Source: Desulfovibrio sp. Fe33
GTDB lineage: Bacteria; Desulfobacterota; Desulfovibrionia; Desulfovibrionales; Desulfovibrionaceae
NCBI RefSeq assembly: GCF_028532725.1
Contig: NZ_JAQKGU010000005.1
Span: 1 to 64,000 of the forward strand
Length of the DNA: 64,000 nucleotides
Reading direction: 5' to 3'
The position numbers and the translations under genes were made by a program. Positions 48,847-56,250 of this stretch are shown one piece after another (the first letter of the stretch is position 1; each line of letters begins with the position of its first letter). Below the pieces are notes generated by a model, which was given only the letters and a program-made list of their open reading frames with translations, made no database searches and was not told where the DNA came from.

Positions 48847-48867
48847 CCGCCCGCCCCTCGACAAACG

Positions 48868-48903
48868 AAAAGGCTGCCGGGATAATCCCGGCAGCCTTTT
48901 TTT
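48868..48903. terminator. Bidirectional terminator between convergent genes
   Basis: A 15-bp stem beginning AAAAGGCTGCC with a 3-base loop and its complement ends in seven T residues (48897-48903). It separates the acetyltransferase gene from the minus-strand signalling operon. Confidence 0.93.
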
Positions 48904-48921
48904 CGCCGTCCGCCCGAGAGG

Positions 48922-49350
48922 CTACCACCCCTTGGACTTGAGAATCTCGTTGACCTTTTTCTCGGTCTTCTTTTCCACAATGACCATCTTCTTGGCCTGC
49001 GCCTTCTTGATCTTGTCGGTCAGGGCGTCGATATCCGCGGGCTTCTCCATGAAGTCCATGGCGCCAAGCTTCATGGCTTGAATGCCCGCCTCAAGAGTGG
49101 CCTGGCCGGTGAGCAGGATGACCTGCATGTCCGGATTGCCCTTCTTGATGACCTTGAGCATCTCGATCCCATTCATATCCGGCATCTGAAGGTCCAACAC
49201 GATGGCGTCGTAGTCGCCCGACTTGATCGCGTTGACGGCGTTGTCGGCGTTGTCGGCCGTGGTCACATCCATGCCCCGGATCTCCATCCGCTCGGACAGA
49301 GCTTCGAGGAATTCCACTTCATCATCGATAAGCAGCACTTTTTCTGCCAT
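48922..49350 (-). CDS. Single-domain response regulator (last gene of operon)
   Basis: A 142-residue CheY-like receiver. The acidic pocket is Asp9-Asp10-Glu11, the phospho-acceptor Asp53 (VLDLQMP), with Thr81 and Lys103. A Lys-rich C-terminal helix (KKAQAKKMVIVEKKTEKK) has no DNA-binding domain. It lies 32 bases after the kinase-like gene. It could be the end receiver of the phosphorelay or interact with a protein partner. Confidence 0.88.
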   Translation of the reverse strand: MAEKVLLIDDEVEFLEALSERMEIRGMDVTTADNADNAVNAIKSGDYDAIVLDLQMPDMNGIEMLKVIKKGNPDMQVILLTGQATLEAGIQAMKLGAMDFMEKPADIDALTDKIKKAQAKKMVIVEKKTEKKVNEILKSKGW

Positions 49351-49382
49351 TTCTTTCTTCTCCGATCAGGTATGAAGTTGTC

Positions 49383-50033
49383 TTACGCGGGAGCGCCCGC
49401 GGCAGCAAGCCGCAATTCGCTGGCCCCGGTCCTTTCGTTCACTTCGACGCGAACGCCCATGGCGCGGGCCAGGTCGGCGAACGGTTCGTCATTCCTCAGC
49501 GGCGCATCCTTTCCGGGCACGAAAAGGGAGAACGATGCGCCGCCCTCGACGGACGAGACGGTGACAATCAGCGAGTCGCCCGGTTTCATGGAATCAAAGG
49601 CCGCCGCGAAGGAGGAGTGCAGCAGCCGCGTCAGATCAAAGGGGCACACAGCCATGGACACGGGCTTGCAGTCGCCCATGGACAGCTTGATCTGCCGCAT
49701 ATCGGCAAAACGGGAGGTCAGGGCCACGGCCAGGCTCAGGCCCTCGACCAGGTCGAGTTCACGAACGTCTTCATCCGTGGAGTGCGCGAACGCATTCATG
49801 TTCCGGACAATGGCATCGCCGCGCCGTATCTGTCCCTGAATGGAATTGGCCGCGCTCTTCAGCCGCTCCGGCCGGATGGGCATACCGCGCTCGGCCATGA
49901 GCGTGAAATCCTCGATCAGACCGGCCGCCTCGTTGATGACGGCGAACACGTTCTTGATCTCATGGGACACGGATGCGCTGACGCGTCCGAAAAATCGCAG
50001 CCCGTCGCGGGTCACGCAGGGGGTCTGGCTCAT
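49383..50033 (-). CDS. Histidine-kinase-like protein lacking ATP-binding motifs (possible phosphotransferase)
   Basis: A 216-residue soluble protein. The H-box SASVSHEIKN puts the phospho-His at residue 24, followed by a two-helix HisKA-type dimer (to about 90). In the place of the ATP domain, no Asn box (LTRLLHSSFAAAFDSM), no DxGxG and no GxGL is found. Spo0B and ChpT phosphotransferases have such a plan. The ATG at 50033 is supported by AAGGAG; a GTG at 50039 would overlap it. It is flanked by two single receivers. Confidence 0.7.
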   Translation of the reverse strand: MSQTPCVTRDGLRFFGRVSASVSHEIKNVFAVINEAAGLIEDFTLMAERGMPIRPERLKSAANSIQGQIRRGDAIVRNMNAFAHSTDEDVRELDLVEGLSLAVALTSRFADMRQIKLSMGDCKPVSMAVCPFDLTRLLHSSFAAAFDSMKPGDSLIVTVSSVEGGASFSLFVPGKDAPLRNDEPFADLARAMGVRVEVNERTGASELRLAAAGAPA

Positions 50034-50049
50034 GGTCACTCCTTTGTCC

Positions 50050-50400
50050 TTACTCCGTCGCCTTGTGGATCAGGGCGACGAGATCCTCGAGCTGAATGGG
50101 CTTGATGAGATAGTTGCAGCCCGCCGCGCAGCCCGCCTTGAAATCCGATTCCGAGCCATGCCCGGACAGGAAGATGAACTTCATGCCGGGGTGTTTCGCG
50201 GCCATCCGCTCCATAAGCTCCAGGCCGCTCAACCTGGGCATTTTCATGTCCAGAACAGCCACGTCGTAATCGTTGGCGTCGGCCATCTCCAGAGCCGATT
50301 CGCCGTTGTCCGTCCAGTCCGCTTCCAGGCCGCGGAATCCGAGCCGCTCGGCCATGGCGGAAACCAGTTCCACTTCGTCGTCTACCAAAAGTACTTTCAT
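50050..50400 (-). CDS. Single-domain response regulator
   Basis: A 116-residue receiver: Asp7-Asp8-Glu9, phospho-acceptor Asp51 (VLDMKMP), Ser79 in place of Thr, and Lys100 (YLIKPI). It has no output domain. It starts one base after the histidine kinase stop (50402), so it is its likely direct partner. I used the ATG at 50400; an upstream frame overlaps the kinase. Confidence 0.9.
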   Translation of the reverse strand: MKVLLVDDEVELVSAMAERLGFRGLEADWTDNGESALEMADANDYDVAVLDMKMPRLSGLELMERMAAKHPGMKFIFLSGHGSESDFKAGCAAGCNYLIKPIQLEDLVALIHKATE

Positions 50401-50401
50401 G

Positions 50402-52150
50402 CTATGCCTTGTCTTTCCTGTTGTCTTCGGGCTTGGCCCCCTTGAGAGGCATGACGATGGTGAAGGTCGTGCCCTTGCCCACCTCGCTCTCAACGGTCAT
50501 GGTCCCGCCCAGTTCCTGGACCAGGCCATAGGTGATGGACAGGCCGAGCCCCGTGCCCCCGGACTTCTTCTTCGTGGAGAAGAACGGATCGAAGATGCGC
50601 TTGATGTCAGACTGCGGGATGCCGCATCCGTCGTCCTCCACCACAAAAATCAGATGGTCGCAGGCCGTGTCCCGGGCGGAAATATACAGATGGCCGCCGT
50701 CGTTCATGGCCTGGAAGGCGTTGTTCACCAGATTAAGGAATATCTGCTGCAACTTGCCCCGATCGGAGATGAACGGAGGCAGGTTTTCCGGCACGTCCAT
50801 CTCGATGGAGATGGAACGGTATTCCGCCTCCTTGCGCAGGAAGTCGATGACCTCGTTGGCGAGATCGTTGAACTCGATCTCGTCCATCTCCACGTCGATG
50901 TGCCGGGCGAAGCTGAGCAGCCGCTTGGTGATCTTGCCGCACCGGGCCACGGAACTGAGAATGGAGTCGATGTTTCCGAGCAGCCGCTCGTCGTGGGCGT
51001 ATTCCTGCTTGAAAACAAACAGGTCGCGGATCAATCCGGCCTTCTCGTTGATGATGGCCAGCGGGTTGTTGATCTCGTGAGCCACGCCCGCCGCCAGCCG
51101 CCCGATGGAGGCCATGCGGTTGGTGTGCTCCATGCGATGCAGGGTGCGCGCCCTGGTCTGGTCCGCGATGTATATCTTGTTGACCATGTGGGTGGCCACG
51201 CCCACGATGACCAGCAGGATCACGGCGATGCTCGTTATGAGTATCCAGAGCAGCTCCATGCGTATGGTCTGCAACGGCTTCATCAGCTCACGGGTGCGTT
51301 TGACCACGAGAACGATGAACGGAGTGTCGTGAACATAGGCGTACCCGACCGTGTACTCTTCGCCGTTCGCGCCCCGGACCTGCTGCACGCTGGTCTTCTC
51401 GGAATAGCCGGGAATGGTCAGGTCCACCTTGGTCAGCAATGCGCCGTGCTGCTTGGACGGGGTCTGGATGATGCCGTTGCGGTCCACCGCGAAGGCGTCT
51501 CCGCCGCCCGGCAAATCCAGGGAGGTCAGAATGGAATTGAACTGGTCCGTGTCCAGAGTGGCCCGAAGCATGTAATCCTGCCCGGTCCGATCGTCCCTGA
51601 CCTTCCGCGAGATGACCAGGTGCGGCTCGTCGCGGAACCCGAGAAAGACCCGGCTGATGTAGGTGCCGTGGGTCATGGTGGTGGCGAACCCCTCCTGGCC
51701 GCTGTAATCGCGGCCGAGCAGGTCGTACGGACCGATGTAGGCGATCTGATGCCCCTTGGCATCGATCACGCCGATATCCACGAACCCGCCGAAGCTCTTT
51801 TCCAGGGAGGACATGACCTTGGCCAGGTTTTCCTTGTCGCGCAGCGCAGCGATGCCCTGATTCTGAATCAGGAACTCCAGCGCCTTGGACCGTTCCTCCA
51901 GGAAGTAGGCCACGGACCGGCGGGTGTTGGAGGTGGTCCTGGCCGCGCGGAGCAGATTCTCCGACTCCAGGGAATGCCGGGTGACGTTATAGTCGATGAA
52001 GGCCATAACCATCAGGGGAATGAGAGCCACCAGCGCCAGTAAAATAATGGCGAAGCGCCAGATGCGCCGGTAATCGAAGAGGCTCTTGCCTGCTCCGCCG
52101 TCGCTGTCCGTATCCCAGAACTGCGGTCGTATCTTCTCGAACAATGCCAT
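50402..52150 (-). CDS. Membrane sensor histidine kinase with dCache domain
   Basis: A 582-residue kinase. Membrane segments lie at about 30-55 and 300-325, flanking a periplasmic dCache-type sensor (DIGVIDAKGHQIAYIGPYDL, DRNGIIQTP). The catalytic part has phospho-His358 (AAGVAHEINNPLA), the N-box LVNNAFQAM near 474, G1 DDGCGIP (506-512) and G2 GGTGLGL (531-537). All motifs needed for activity are present. The ligand is unknown. Confidence 0.93.
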   Translation of the reverse strand: MALFEKIRPQFWDTDSDGGAGKSLFDYRRIWRFAIILLALVALIPLMVMAFIDYNVTRHSLESENLLRAARTTSNTRRSVAYFLEERSKALEFLIQNQGIAALRDKENLAKVMSSLEKSFGGFVDIGVIDAKGHQIAYIGPYDLLGRDYSGQEGFATTMTHGTYISRVFLGFRDEPHLVISRKVRDDRTGQDYMLRATLDTDQFNSILTSLDLPGGGDAFAVDRNGIIQTPSKQHGALLTKVDLTIPGYSEKTSVQQVRGANGEEYTVGYAYVHDTPFIVLVVKRTRELMKPLQTIRMELLWILITSIAVILLVIVGVATHMVNKIYIADQTRARTLHRMEHTNRMASIGRLAAGVAHEINNPLAIINEKAGLIRDLFVFKQEYAHDERLLGNIDSILSSVARCGKITKRLLSFARHIDVEMDEIEFNDLANEVIDFLRKEAEYRSISIEMDVPENLPPFISDRGKLQQIFLNLVNNAFQAMNDGGHLYISARDTACDHLIFVVEDDGCGIPQSDIKRIFDPFFSTKKKSGGTGLGLSITYGLVQELGGTMTVESEVGKGTTFTIVMPLKGAKPEDNRKDKA

Positions 52151-52171
52151 GACGCCACCCGGCTTTTACGG

Positions 52172-53389
52172 TTACTTTCCAGCCCGAATCTTATCGTTGG
52201 CCGCCTTGAGCGTCTCGCTCAGGACGTCGATGTCCACGGGCTTGTGCAGGTAGGCGAACGCGCCCAGTTCCATGCACACCTTCCGATCATCCTCCGAACC
52301 GTGGCCGGTCAGGATGATGACCTCGATGTCGGGATGTTCACGCTTGACGCGACGCAGAACCTCGATGCCGTCTATGCCGGGCATCTTCAGGTCGAGGATC
52401 ATGACTTCGGGTTCGTCTTCTTGGACCAGGTTCAAGGCGGATTCGCCATCGTAGACCACGGCCGAGCCCATGTCACGCATCATCAGGCGTTCGGACAGGG
52501 TTTGGACGAACTCGCGCTCGTCGTCAACCAACAGGACCTTGGAAGGCACCTCGAAGTCCATCTTGCGGTAGATATCGGTCTGGTGGAATCCCTTGCCCAC
52601 CTGACACTCAACGGCCAGGACGCCTTCCACATCGGAGACGATGGTCTTGAGTTCGCGCTCCAGCTTCTCCAACAGGAGCACGTGCTTGTTGATGGTCAGG
52701 GTGATGGTGCCCTTGCTCGCGCCCACCTGGACGTTGTGTCCCTCCCTGGCGAGCACGGTTTCGACCCGCGCGGCCAGCAGGAAATCCTTTACGGCAGCGC
52801 GGGAACGGTCCGTAACCTTGACCGCGGAGTTGGAAAGCTGCTCGACGATAAGGTCGGCGGAACGATCCACGCCGGTGGAGGCCACGGGCAGAACCAGATC
52901 GTAGAGGACGCCGGACCACGGGTCGTCGGCTTCCCGCAGGGCCTTGACCCAGGCGGCGCGGTCCTCGTCATCCTTGCGGATGAGCTTCATGGCGTGCTTC
53001 TCAGCGAAGCCTTCCTCACGCTCTGCCACGGCCAGGCGGGCCTTCATGTCGGAAATAAGGCAAACCTTGAGGATGTGGCCGATCTCGGGATCGGGCAACT
53101 GGGAAGCGAACCCGGGAATGATGAGGTTCTCTCCGGCGACCAGCCGCTTCGCCACGGCGAGGCGCATCCAGGCGATGGCCTGCTCCTTTTCGTGACTGAA
53201 GGCGTTGAAGACCGAAGCCTTGGCCTGGAAGGCCCGGGCGATGCGGTCCTCGGCCAGGCCGGACAGCTTGGAGGCGTCGGCCACGATCTCTTGGTCGGTG
53301 ACCAGGCGGCAGTCCGTGGCGTCCACAACGCGCTTGACCACCACTCCGGCCTCGCAGAACAATCCGTTGAACACGGTAATGACAGACAT
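52172..53389 (-). CDS. Cytidylate-kinase-like domain fused to a receiver
   Basis: A 405-residue fusion. Residues 1-185 match the cytidylate-kinase-like fold (VITVFNGLFCEAGVVVKRVV), but the GSGG-type phosphate loop is replaced. Residues 190-270 resemble a BON-like domain, and 282-400 form a receiver with Asp289-Asp290, phospho-Asp333, Thr361 and Lys383. It begins 21 bases after sulP. I used the ATG at 53389. It may sense a nucleotide or bind the SulP STAS region. Confidence 0.75.
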   Translation of the reverse strand: MSVITVFNGLFCEAGVVVKRVVDATDCRLVTDQEIVADASKLSGLAEDRIARAFQAKASVFNAFSHEKEQAIAWMRLAVAKRLVAGENLIIPGFASQLPDPEIGHILKVCLISDMKARLAVAEREEGFAEKHAMKLIRKDDEDRAAWVKALREADDPWSGVLYDLVLPVASTGVDRSADLIVEQLSNSAVKVTDRSRAAVKDFLLAARVETVLAREGHNVQVGASKGTITLTINKHVLLLEKLERELKTIVSDVEGVLAVECQVGKGFHQTDIYRKMDFEVPSKVLLVDDEREFVQTLSERLMMRDMGSAVVYDGESALNLVQEDEPEVMILDLKMPGIDGIEVLRRVKREHPDIEVIILTGHGSEDDRKVCMELGAFAYLHKPVDIDVLSETLKAANDKIRAGK

Positions 53390-53409
53390 ATTGACTCCCT
53401 TTTCTCGCC

Positions 53410-55536
53410 TTAGGCCAGGCGGCAAACAGTGGTGAGAGGACAGTTATCTTCCTGGCCATCATGATGCGCACTCTCGTGCGTGGCGCAGATGGCGTTCTCC
53501 ATGGTGGCGTAAACGTGGTCCCTGCCGATCTTCTCCAGCAGGTGGGTGCGTTCGAGCACGGCCATGACCGACTCGTTCACCCCGCACAACGAGATATCGA
53601 GACCGCTGGACCGGACCCGGTCCACGATCAGCGACAAGGCTTCCTCGCCCGAGGCGTCCATGTCGTTGATACCGTTGGCCACGATAATGATATGCCGAAG
53701 CTTGTCGTTGCCCATCATCCGCTCGGTGATCTGGTCCTCAAGGAAACTCGCGTTGGCGAAGAAGAGCGGACCGTCGAAGCGAACCAGGGCGATATGCCTG
53801 CACTCCCTGAGACCGAAGGCCGTGGCGTCGCGCAGGGACTTGTCCTCGGAACGGGACAGAGTGGCGACGCGGGGGCGCATGGACTTGTACAGGAAGACAA
53901 GCAGGGAAAGGACGACGCCGACCATGATGCCCTTGTCCAGATGCGGGGCGAAAGCCAAGGTGCAAATGAAGGACAGGATGGAGATGGCCCCGTCATACCA
54001 CTGGGCCTTCCAGGCATGGATGAAGCCCGAAGCGTTGATGAGCCCGATGACGGCCATCATGATGACCGCGGCCAGTACGGCCTGGGGCAGATGGTAGAGC
54101 AGCGGAGTGAAGAAAAGCAGGGCGACGACGACCATCAGCGAGGTGAACACGCTGGACATGCCGGTGACCGCGCCCGCCTGAAGATTGACCGCCGAGCGCG
54201 AGAAGGAACCCGAAGCCGGATAGCTCTTGCCGCACGCGCCGAGAATATTGGCCAGTCCCTGGCCGATAAGCTCCTGGTTGGGGTCCAGGCGCTGTCCGGT
54301 CTTGGCGGCCATGGCCTTGGCGATGGAGATGGCCTCCATGAAGCCGAGCAGAGAAATGATCGCCGCGAACGGGACCAGGTGCAGCATGACTTCCAGGTCG
54401 AGGGAAGGCGCGCTGATGGAGGGAATGCCGGAAGGCACCGAGCCGACCACGGCCCCGCCGCCCATCATCTTCAGGGAAGCAGTGTCGAGCCTGCCGTTGC
54501 CGACCTTGATCCGCCAAGTGCGCCCGTCCGAGGTCATGCCCGCGGGAATCGCGTCCTTGGCGAAGAAAAGCAGGCTGCCGTCGGCCTGCTCAACACCGGT
54601 AAGCAGGGTCTCCCGCAAACCGGCGCGCAGTTCGTGCGCCTGGAGCTTGAGGCGGGCCATCTTGACGTTGACCACGCTCTGATCGTGCTGGATGTCGAGT
54701 ATCCCGACCGGGTCCCCGCTTTTCTCGGCTTCCTTCATGGACTTGCCCAGGGCGGTTCGCTGCATGGCCAGATCCTCGATCCCGACCACAGCCGTGTTGA
54801 AACCGTTGATGGCGTCGTGCATGGCGGGAACGCGGATGGCGTCCAGCGGAGCCTTGACGTCGTGATTGAAGCCCAGCCCCCAGGAAAGGGCCGTGGTCAC
54901 CACGACCGCCACCAGGACGTTGGGGATCTTCGGATTGACGCGTTTGAGGAAGATCATGATGCCGAAAGCGAGCGCCCCCATGGCCAGCGTAGGCCAGTGG
55001 GTGTAATGCACCGCGCTCTCGACCACGCGGATGATGGTCTCATAATGATGGTCCGCCTTGTCCACGTAGACGCCGAACATCTTGGAAAGCTGGGAAGAAG
55101 CGATGATGATGGCCGCGGCGTTGGTGAAACCGTTGACCACGGGGTGGGACAGAAAGTTGACCACCAGACCGAGCTTGAGCACGCCGAGCAGGAGCTGGAA
55201 TATGCCGACCATCAGGGCCAGCAGGATGGCGTAGGCGATGTATCCCTCGCTGCCGGCCGTGGCCAGGGGCTCAAGGGATGCCGCCGTCATGAGCGAAACC
55301 ACGGCCACCGGGCCGGTGGCCAACTGACGGCTGGAGCCGAACAGGGCCGCCACCAGGGGGGGAAGAAAGGACGCATACAAGCCGTAGTAGGCGGGCATAC
55401 CCGCCAACTGGGCATAGGCCATGGATTGGGGAATGAGCACGAGGGCAACGGTCAGCCCCGCGATGGCGTCGGCACGGAGCGCCGCCATATTGTACCCTTT
55501 GAACCAGCCGATGAAAGGGATTATCCGTGAAAGCAT
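53410..55536 (-). CDS. SulP family anion transporter with STAS domain and large insert
   Basis: A 708-residue inner-membrane transporter of sulfate or another anion. The N-terminal signature is RADAIAGLTVALVLIPQSMA with GPVAVVSLM and HPVVNGFTNA. An extra segment of about 140 residues lies near 224-365, helical then beta, followed by VPSGIPS. The C-terminal STAS domain is about 560-680 (HIALVRFDGPLFFANASFLE, NDMDASGEEAL). It starts 17 bases after the TetR gene and heads five signalling genes. Confidence 0.9.
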   Translation of the reverse strand: MLSRIIPFIGWFKGYNMAALRADAIAGLTVALVLIPQSMAYAQLAGMPAYYGLYASFLPPLVAALFGSSRQLATGPVAVVSLMTAASLEPLATAGSEGYIAYAILLALMVGIFQLLLGVLKLGLVVNFLSHPVVNGFTNAAAIIIASSQLSKMFGVYVDKADHHYETIIRVVESAVHYTHWPTLAMGALAFGIMIFLKRVNPKIPNVLVAVVVTTALSWGLGFNHDVKAPLDAIRVPAMHDAINGFNTAVVGIEDLAMQRTALGKSMKEAEKSGDPVGILDIQHDQSVVNVKMARLKLQAHELRAGLRETLLTGVEQADGSLLFFAKDAIPAGMTSDGRTWRIKVGNGRLDTASLKMMGGGAVVGSVPSGIPSISAPSLDLEVMLHLVPFAAIISLLGFMEAISIAKAMAAKTGQRLDPNQELIGQGLANILGACGKSYPASGSFSRSAVNLQAGAVTGMSSVFTSLMVVVALLFFTPLLYHLPQAVLAAVIMMAVIGLINASGFIHAWKAQWYDGAISILSFICTLAFAPHLDKGIMVGVVLSLLVFLYKSMRPRVATLSRSEDKSLRDATAFGLRECRHIALVRFDGPLFFANASFLEDQITERMMGNDKLRHIIIVANGINDMDASGEEALSLIVDRVRSSGLDISLCGVNESVMAVLERTHLLEKIGRDHVYATMENAICATHESAHHDGQEDNCPLTTVCRLA

Positions 55537-55553
55537 TCAGCCTCTTCCTTGCA

Positions 55554-56135
55554 TTACGCCTGCAACATCCTGCGGCATGTGCGCATCAGTTCGTTGAACA
55601 GCGCGCCCGCATCGTACAGGTTGTAGTTTTTGAATCGAACCAGACCATCTGCCATCGTAAACAGAATGAGCGCCGATTTTCTGGGATTGATTTCCATGCC
55701 GATGGAGCCGTCTTCCTGCCCCGTCACGATAGCCTTCTCGAAGATGTCCACGAGGCAATTGTAGATATCTTCCAGGTTCGCTCTGAACTCCGGGTTCGAC
55801 TCGGAGTACTGGTAGAGAAAGTGACGGTGAAGGAGCAGGAACTTGTCCTCCAGCAGACCGGCCAGATACAGATAGAAAGAAACGACCTCCTCCGTCATCT
55901 CAAGACCCGATTTGAACGGCCTGTTCTCGAAGAACCGTTCAAACTGGTCCACTATCTCGTCCCTGGTCTTTTCGAGGATCGCGAGCAGCAAGCCTTCCTT
56001 CGTCTTGAAGTGATAGAAGATCGTCCCCTCGGCCACTCCGGTGAGGCGGGCAAGCTCCTGCCCCGACGTGTCCGCAAACCCCTTGTGAGCGAACATGAAC
56101 GTGGCGACCTTGAGGATGGCTTCCTTCTTCTTCAT
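55554..56135 (-). CDS. TetR-family transcriptional regulator
   Basis: A 193-residue repressor. The HTH is at about 5-50: KKEAILKVATFMFAHKGF, then DTSGQELARLTGVAEGTIFY-HFKTKEGLL. The ligand-binding part is all helical. I used the ATG at 56135, since the GTG at 56174 lies in the operator region. It heads the operon and probably represses itself and sulP through two palindromes upstream. Confidence 0.9.
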   Translation of the reverse strand: MKKKEAILKVATFMFAHKGFADTSGQELARLTGVAEGTIFYHFKTKEGLLLAILEKTRDEIVDQFERFFENRPFKSGLEMTEEVVSFYLYLAGLLEDKFLLLHRHFLYQYSESNPEFRANLEDIYNCLVDIFEKAIVTGQEDGSIGMEINPRKSALILFTMADGLVRFKNYNLYDAGALFNELMRTCRRMLQA

Positions 56136-56160: not shown

Positions 56161-56180
56161 AACCGAGTGTCCACTCAGTT
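56161..56180. promoter_or_regulatory. Operator palindrome O1 for the TetR regulator
   Basis: AACCGAGTG and CACTCAGTT (one mismatch) lie two bases apart, close to the expected transcription start of the TetR gene. Confidence 0.65.
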
Positions 56181-56226: not shown

Positions 56227-56250
56227 GAAACTGAGCAAACACTCAGTTTC
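56227..56250. promoter_or_regulatory. Operator palindrome O2 for the TetR regulator
   Basis: A perfect 9-bp inverted repeat, GAAACTGAG and CTCAGTTTC, with a 6-base spacer CAAACA. The CTGAG/CTCAG core is shared with O1. The remaining bases to 56479 hold no clear gene. Confidence 0.65.

Follow-up and report, generated by a model that had tools for sequence, protein, structure and literature searches.

The present analysis concerns a set of seven genes of Desulfovibrio sp. Fe33 and the way in which their products may control an anion transporter. The genes lie on the minus strand, between positions 48922 and 56135, of a stretch of 64,000 nucleotides (contig NZ_JAQKGU010000005.1, positions 1 to 64,000; hereafter the window). 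In transcription order, they encode a TetR-family regulator, a SulP transporter with a STAS domain, a protein joining a cytidylate-kinase-like body to a receiver domain (hereafter the fusion), a dCache sensor histidine kinase, a stand-alone receiver (REC1), a degenerate histidine kinase (the relic), and a second stand-alone receiver (REC2). A previous reading made from the sequence only had described seven same-strand genes in this order with short gaps. Pfam profiles and the gaps read from the sequence, 1 to 32 bases, confirm this description: 17 bases separate tetR from sulP, 20 bases sulP from the fusion (ATG at 53389), 21 bases the fusion from the kinase, a single base the kinase from REC1, 10 or 16 bases REC1 from the relic, for a GTG or an ATG start respectively, and 32 bases the relic from REC2.

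The SulP transporter and the kinase-like/receiver fusion

The transporter (708 residues, 53410–55536) is of the SulP/SLC26 type. It carries the Sulfate_transp membrane domain (Pfam, E = 7.6e-103) and a C-terminal STAS domain (residues 581–682, 53491–53796; Pfam, E = 9.5e-16), and it scores above the cut-off of TIGR00815. Its best-scoring solved chain is AtSULTR4;1 (E = 2.8e-123), for which we know of no two-component partner. With positions counted by hand, E401, found in at least 90% of 15 aligned rows, and the invariant R447 align with Glu347 and Arg393 of AtSULTR4;1. In passages of PMC8298490, this glutamate, on transmembrane helix 8 (TM8), is assigned to proton coupling and this arginine to the sulfate site. 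Judged by the alignment, SulP keeps the TM8 glutamate and the substrate-site arginine of an H+/sulfate symporter; sulfate transport itself is predicted, and sulfate is the likely substrate. SulP differs from the aligned AtSULTR4;1 chain by an insert of about 138 residues (about 225–362; 54451–54864), which the alignment and the topology given in passages of PMC8298490 would place in the periplasmic TM7–TM8 loop.

The fusion (405 residues, 52172–53389) consists of a degenerate cytidylate-kinase-like domain (Cytidylate_kin2, E = 1e-13), a weakly BON-like linker and a receiver (52208–52537; Response_reg, E = 2.8e-28). Cytidylate_kin2 matches 16 of 16 fusion rows. None of 65 fusion frames has the P-loop GxxxxGK in its strict form, and three have it in a loose form (K/R/H/Q), whereas short kinase-like paralogs keep it (7 of 14 strict and 13 of 14 loose; 13 of 23 strict in a second set). 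By this comparison, the kinase-like body of the fusion has lost its P-loop; it may serve as an adaptor. A BON identity for the linker was dropped in favor of "BON-like" as the scores were below the cut-off: the linker of the window gave no match, the best relative reached 19.9 bits against a cut-off of 27, and the DolP/YraP chain gave an E-value of 0.33. On the 12–16 sequences used for profiles, the receiver of the fusion is the most conserved component of the unit, with a mean pairwise identity of 0.82 over 16 sequences, followed by the membrane half of SulP (0.80), its STAS-containing half (0.76), REC2 (0.63), REC1 (0.57) and, lowest, the SulP insert (0.41).

The sensor kinase, the receivers and the histidine-kinase relic

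The sensor kinase (582 residues, 50402–52150) combines dCache_1, HisKA and HATPase_c domains (Pfam). The phosphorylatable histidine, the N box and the G2 box are intact in 55 of 55 kinases of the loci compared. Downstream, REC1 (116 residues, 50050–50400; Response_reg, E = 8.7e-24) and REC2 (142 residues, 48922–49350; Response_reg, E = 7.9e-29) flank the relic. REC1 relatives form one clade in a tree of 182 receivers, which is built on few columns and in which bootstrap values are not settled. A Pfam scan of the window proteins gave no DNA-binding domain on any receiver of the operon, and 100 of 101 receiver-only genes downstream of fusions carry no more than 40 residues beyond the receiver; the remaining one is an extra gene at L061. 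By their domain content, the receivers of this operon therefore differ from PhoRB-like transcriptional response regulators, having no DNA-binding output domain, and the previous statement that no DNA-binding response regulator is present holds.

The relic (216–218 residues, 49383–50039) comprises a DHp domain and a CA domain without ATP lid. Its Pfam match is HisKA alone (E = 2.9e-4), with 21.3 bits, below the cut-off of 26.9. In a single BLASTP comparison, it matches the operon's own kinase with an E-value of 6e-13, and its predicted structure (predicted local distance difference test score of 88) has fold matches to histidine kinases. Among relics scoring above 100 bits, the phospho-histidine, the asparagine at H+4 and the HE/DxxN motif are each found in 48 of 48, while the N-box asparagines are found in 0 and 1 of 48 and the G2 box is gapped in 47–48 of 48. 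By these motifs, the gene is a histidine-kinase relic with an invariant phospho-histidine and a dead ATP site, as would be expected of the phosphotransferase for which it had been put forward as a candidate. It combines the features of histidine-kinase-derived phosphotransferases, a DHp–CA fold, a conserved histidine and no ATP-binding motifs, and is a candidate for that function. Membership in the ChpT or Spo0B families proper is not established and the comparison is limited to a similar way of working: a Pfam scan (E up to 0.1), with a library that presumably holds the profiles of these families, gave HisKA only, and ChpT and Spo0B chains were absent among the 50 fold matches listed, which excludes nothing.

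At the level of sequence, all the parts of a phosphorelay are thus present with their phospho-acceptor residues: a kinase, an intermediate receiver, a histidine phosphotransferase candidate and a further receiver. The likeliest phosphate flow would run from the kinase to REC1, to the relic and to a receiver, because the relic keeps its phospho-histidine and has lost its ATP site, like Spo0B, ChpT and PhyT. According to passages of PMC5898713, the Pak–SdrG–PhyT–PhyR system of Sphingomonas similarly leads from a kinase via a single-domain receiver and a phosphotransferase that is a degenerate histidine kinase to a receiver protein. However, it acts on gene expression through an anti-sigma switch and PhyT is membrane anchored, whereas here one operon holds the relay and a transporter. 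The same source derives the phosphotransferases of Spo0F–Spo0B–Spo0A and CckA–ChpT–CtrA/CpdR from degenerated histidine kinases, as proposed for the relic. By analogy, the present genes may form a relay that works as those of PhyT or Spo0B do and ends on a transporter. The Spo0 and CckA–ChpT relays lead to transcription factors or to a proteolysis adaptor, unlike the transporter proposed here. Finally, for EpsW and EpsZ of Myxococcus, PMC12802240 describes a single-domain response regulator acting post-translationally on a membrane protein, as proposed here, although the target is a phosphoglycosyl transferase and not a transporter.

Conservation of the unit, its operators and the exchange of its transporter

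Searching 84,980 species genomes with the fusion retrieved 17 loci, 15 of which match nearly the whole protein; the other two (L024 and L025) match through the receiver only. Among these 15 related loci, from titled records assigned to Pseudodesulfovibrio, other Desulfovibrionaceae, Desulfobacterales, Syntrophobacteraceae and Desulfatibacillum, 11 show the same seven-gene order when searched with all seven proteins by tblastn (L010–L015, L017–L019, L021 and L023; TetR of L011 is cut by a contig end). Three others are cut by contig ends (L009, L016 and L020), and L022 has no TetR. In a phylum sample of 395 genomes, the kinase-like region finds a match at 1e-10 in 124, many via short paralogs, and 50 genomes, the source genome included, have a fusion match of at least 220 bits. 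From the 49 other than the source genome, 50 fusion loci were examined, and the receiver is present at all of them. SulP lies directly upstream of the fusion at 37 of the 50, each time with the insert; at four more (L063, L073, L086 and L090) the contig ends at most 151 bases upstream of the fusion, and nine have no SulP beside it. Within 2.5 kb downstream of the fusion, contig-end losses included, are found a dCache kinase (34/50), a relic (34/50) and a REC2-type receiver (37/50). Conversely, a search with the insert region of SulP gave 45 genomes with at least 215 bits, and all 45 have a full-length fusion; of the 50 genomes with a fusion, 45 encode this SulP. The co-occurrence of both proteins, which the sequence-only reading had put forward for checking together with that of the kinase-like gene, is thus borne out (Fisher p = 5e-54, n = 395, uncorrected for kinship). 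By gene order and co-occurrence, the seven-gene set is a conserved unit.

The TetR regulator (193 residues, 55554–56135, ATG at 56135; TetR_N, E = 4.5e-13) is preceded by two palindromes on the minus strand, putative operators 1 (AACTGAGTGTTTGCTCAGTT, 56229–56248) and 2 (AACTGAGTGGACACTCGGTT, 56161–56180), with two mismatches and one mismatch, respectively, to AACTGAGTGnnCACTCAGTT. With up to three mismatches, AACTGAGTGnnCACTCAGTT occurs at three places genome-wide, the two operators and a three-mismatch place on contig C2. A sigma-70 scan listed no promoter at these operators. Across the stretches compared (L011, L019 and L022 left out), the pattern ACTGAG-N0-8-CTCAGT is found upstream of tetR within two mismatches in 34 of 35 stretches and within one in 29, against 2.5 and 0.05 in mononucleotide shuffles. 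The label "TetR-controlled" given by the previous reading therefore fits this locus with its two operators but is not general, since TetR occurs in 21 of 37 SulP-containing loci; at two of the 16 loci without it, the contig does not reach far enough upstream. At seven TetR-less loci (L091, L093, L095, L096, L099, L100 and L101), a kinase and a long response regulator with 327–332 extra residues lie upstream of SulP; the one tested (L091) is a sigma-54 activator with a helix-turn-helix domain. Expression control is thus exchangeable, and TetR is a layer separate from the relay, missing in some relatives. At the other end of the operon, a terminator-like hairpin with a T-rich tail (48862–48912, minus strand; -30.9 kcal/mol, z = -6.73) follows REC2; it is absent from the output of the terminator scan.

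At four of the 50 fusion loci (L079, L087, L088 and L089), SulP, STAS and a receiver are joined in one frame of 845–864 residues (L079 and the titled L022 are the same record, from D. alkenivorans; L088 has its relay genes on the opposite strand). These receivers, in which the D-box is present by eye, score 163–178 bits with the profile of the fusion receiver versus 94–116 with those of REC1 and REC2. In the receiver tree they form one clade (100/93) inside the clade of the fusion receivers (100/98). Such SulP–STAS–receiver proteins are the best evidence for the transporter as the relay output. They suggest control at the protein level, in line with the protein–protein output supposed earlier.

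The transporter itself may be exchanged. Three of the nine fusion loci without SulP (L094, L097 and L102) have a TauE transporter downstream (E = 4e-34, 3e-34 and 1e-33). At five (L103–L107), the fusion is beside a Na_sulph_symp (DASS) transporter, with no relic like that of the window; L103 also has a CBS protein and a sigma-54 activator. At the ninth (L108), no TauE- or DASS-type transporter is among the frames listed. Eight of the nine SulP-less fusions are thus near another anion-transporter family (three TauE, five DASS), so that the signalling protein is retained with different transporters. The designation of SulP as the governed transporter is supported by the SulP–receiver fusions but does not apply throughout, TauE standing in its place at three loci. 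As a tentative extension, which we consider conceivable though on balance doubtful, one may envisage a general, transporter-swappable phospho-switch, in which a relay-fed, P-loop-less fusion would directly control the activity of anion transporters belonging to three or more unrelated families (among them SulP, TauE and DASS) in sulfate-reducing bacteria. The kinase-like/receiver fusions beside DASS transporters (L103–L107 and L109), some with CBS proteins, a sigma-54 activator or dCache kinases, would represent a sister system. PPDK_N/PEP-utiliser proteins are also seen near TauE or DASS transporters (L094:16528-19000 and L109:4706-7321).

Concerning the organisms, dsrA is found in 46 of the 50 genomes with a fusion, against 189 of all 395 sampled (p = 3e-12, uncorrected for kinship); two of the four without a match (G000, G042, G043 and G078) are less than 70% complete. 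In the source genome (G000), aprA and sat lie 1.3 kb apart (G000:C13:99538-103916), and the missing dsrA may reflect a gap or a real loss. The same genome encodes a second, diverged kinase-like protein of 602 residues (G000:C2:296896-299726; L026:8630-12279), whose receiver-like end is degenerate by eye. It adjoins a different SulP (559 residues, 26% identical, no insert), and no kinase or relic is beside it among the frames listed. In family f79, a related SulP (L148:6078-8372) lies beside genes resembling hydrogenase by eye, without relay genes. Short kinase-like proteins, many with a P-loop and some in tandem pairs, occur at other loci (L110–L118 and L122–L141), some of them beside polytopic transporters, histidine kinases and receivers. 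Polytopic genes make up 22 of 159 within three genes of such paralogs versus 8 of 211 further off. This weak difference was not used as support: it comes from crude open reading frame calls at 27 of 29 loci, the gene having been detected at all but two, and it includes the SulP locus L135.

Proposed two-layer control of SulP and its alternatives

We consider it probable that the seven genes constitute a two-layer transporter-control operon, in which TetR sets expression and a kinase relay tunes SulP activity. TetR would repress its own promoter via the two palindromic operators and thereby set the amount of the whole operon. The membrane dCache kinase would sense a periplasmic ligand, probably sulfate or another anion, autophosphorylate and pass the phosphate to REC1. 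The relic would accept it on its conserved histidine and deliver it to the receiver of the fusion, to REC2, or to both. The fusion receiver, with the kinase-like body as adaptor, would bind the cytosolic face of SulP, most likely the STAS domain, and so adjust H+/sulfate uptake. The model takes from the sequence the gene order, the kept and lost catalytic residues, the lack of DNA-binding domains, the SulP–receiver fusions and the operator sites; TetR repression, the ligand, the direction of phosphate flow, the docking site, the substrate and the choice between activation and inhibition are proposals of ours.

Several observations weigh against such control of SulP by the relay. Insert-type SulP lies apart from the fusion and from any relay gene in three genomes (G088, G357 and G339), weaker insert-type SulPs occur without full-length fusion in three others (G014, G117 and G171), and partial insert matches in five genomes of families f79 and f65 count against a strict co-occurrence rule. 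In G103, TetR is found with a SulP piece cut by a contig end, and no full-length fusion was found. Over 3.6–8.8 kb downstream of the fusion, L071, L086 and L087 show no same-strand kinase, relic or receiver; no kinase follows the fusion at L070, and L095 and L101 gave no relic match. The three TauE loci keep the six other genes (TetR, fusion, kinase, REC1, relic and REC2) without SulP, and REC2 has no assigned partner in the relay. Neither the fusion nor this insert-type SulP is found in any of the 16 other sampled genomes of the source genome's family. As 143 of 189 dsrA genomes are without the fusion, the latter is not needed for sulfate reduction, and both absences together indicate an optional, patchy system. 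Lastly, a dsrA search of the source genome gave no match, though aprA and sat are there; since both were found, the idea that the host is not a sulfate reducer is doubtful.

In a first alternative, the kinase would phosphorylate all three receivers directly, the relic being a phosphatase or a phosphate sink that resets them. HE/DxxN is the phosphatase motif of HisKA kinases; it is kept in all 48 relics, would equally suit a phosphatase, and belongs to a DHp domain resembling that of the operon's own kinase. However, ATP-site loss with an invariant histidine also marks Spo0B, ChpT and PhyT, and PhyT, initially regarded as a phosphatase, proved to be a phosphotransferase (passages of PMC5898713). 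We regard this alternative to the relay as unlikely.

A second alternative arises from clusters that have already been described in part, so that the earlier remark on the novelty of the system does not stand as made. For Desulfobacteraceae and Desulfovibrio salexigens, PMC11887813 (Sci Adv 2025) reports clusters in which SulP is accompanied by two-component systems and by a TetR repressor preceded by a palindrome. As in the present operon, SulP, two-component genes, TetR with its palindrome and cache-domain kinases are brought together; DASS clusters with two-component and CBS genes are also described there, like the sister loci here. These SulP clusters are very probably of the same kind as this operon. 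In its main text, the response regulators are of WalR type and PhoRB-like, acting at promoters, whereas the receivers of this operon have no DNA-binding domain; a figure legend also marks putative protein–protein interactions. "Cytidylate", "phosphorelay" and "receiver" are absent from that main text, though the genes may be drawn in supplementary figures. Compared with it, the present analysis adds the output-less receivers, the kinase relic, the P-loop-less fusion, the SulP–receiver fusions, the genome-wide co-occurrence and the transporter exchange. Among the matches listed in the open-access literature, no title or abstract concerned a SulP–receiver fusion or this relay.

Following the main line of that published model, the kinase and PhoRB-like response regulators at promoters would, with TetR, set SulP expression. 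The position of the TetR operators at the operon promoter and the long response regulators of the seven TetR-less loci agree with it. Nevertheless, none of the three receivers of this operon carries an output domain, 100 of 101 downstream receiver-only genes in relatives likewise carry none, SulP–receiver fusions exist, and SulP is reported to be constitutively formed (passages of PMC11887813). For this operon, promoter-binding response regulators are ruled out by receivers devoid of an output domain, and purely transcriptional control appears even less likely than direct phosphorylation of all receivers. Finally, it is improbable that the SulP insert reports flux to the dCache kinase with the relay output elsewhere: the predicted TM7–TM8 loop is on the same side as the dCache domain and the relay occurs without SulP at three loci, but the insert is conserved least of all, whereas the STAS half and the fusion receiver rank among the best conserved components, and four loci have a receiver joined directly to STAS.

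Sulfate respiration begins with the uptake of sulfate. Were SulP itself the target of the relay, cells could adjust this uptake fast without making new protein, and direct control of SulP would offer an alternative to the recent promoter-centred model. The function of STAS is said to remain unresolved (passages of PMC8298490); with the relay acting on SulP, this domain would gain a testable regulatory partner. If true, the transporter-swappable switch would provide, as far as searched, a first example of an SLC26/SulP transporter gated by a receiver domain.

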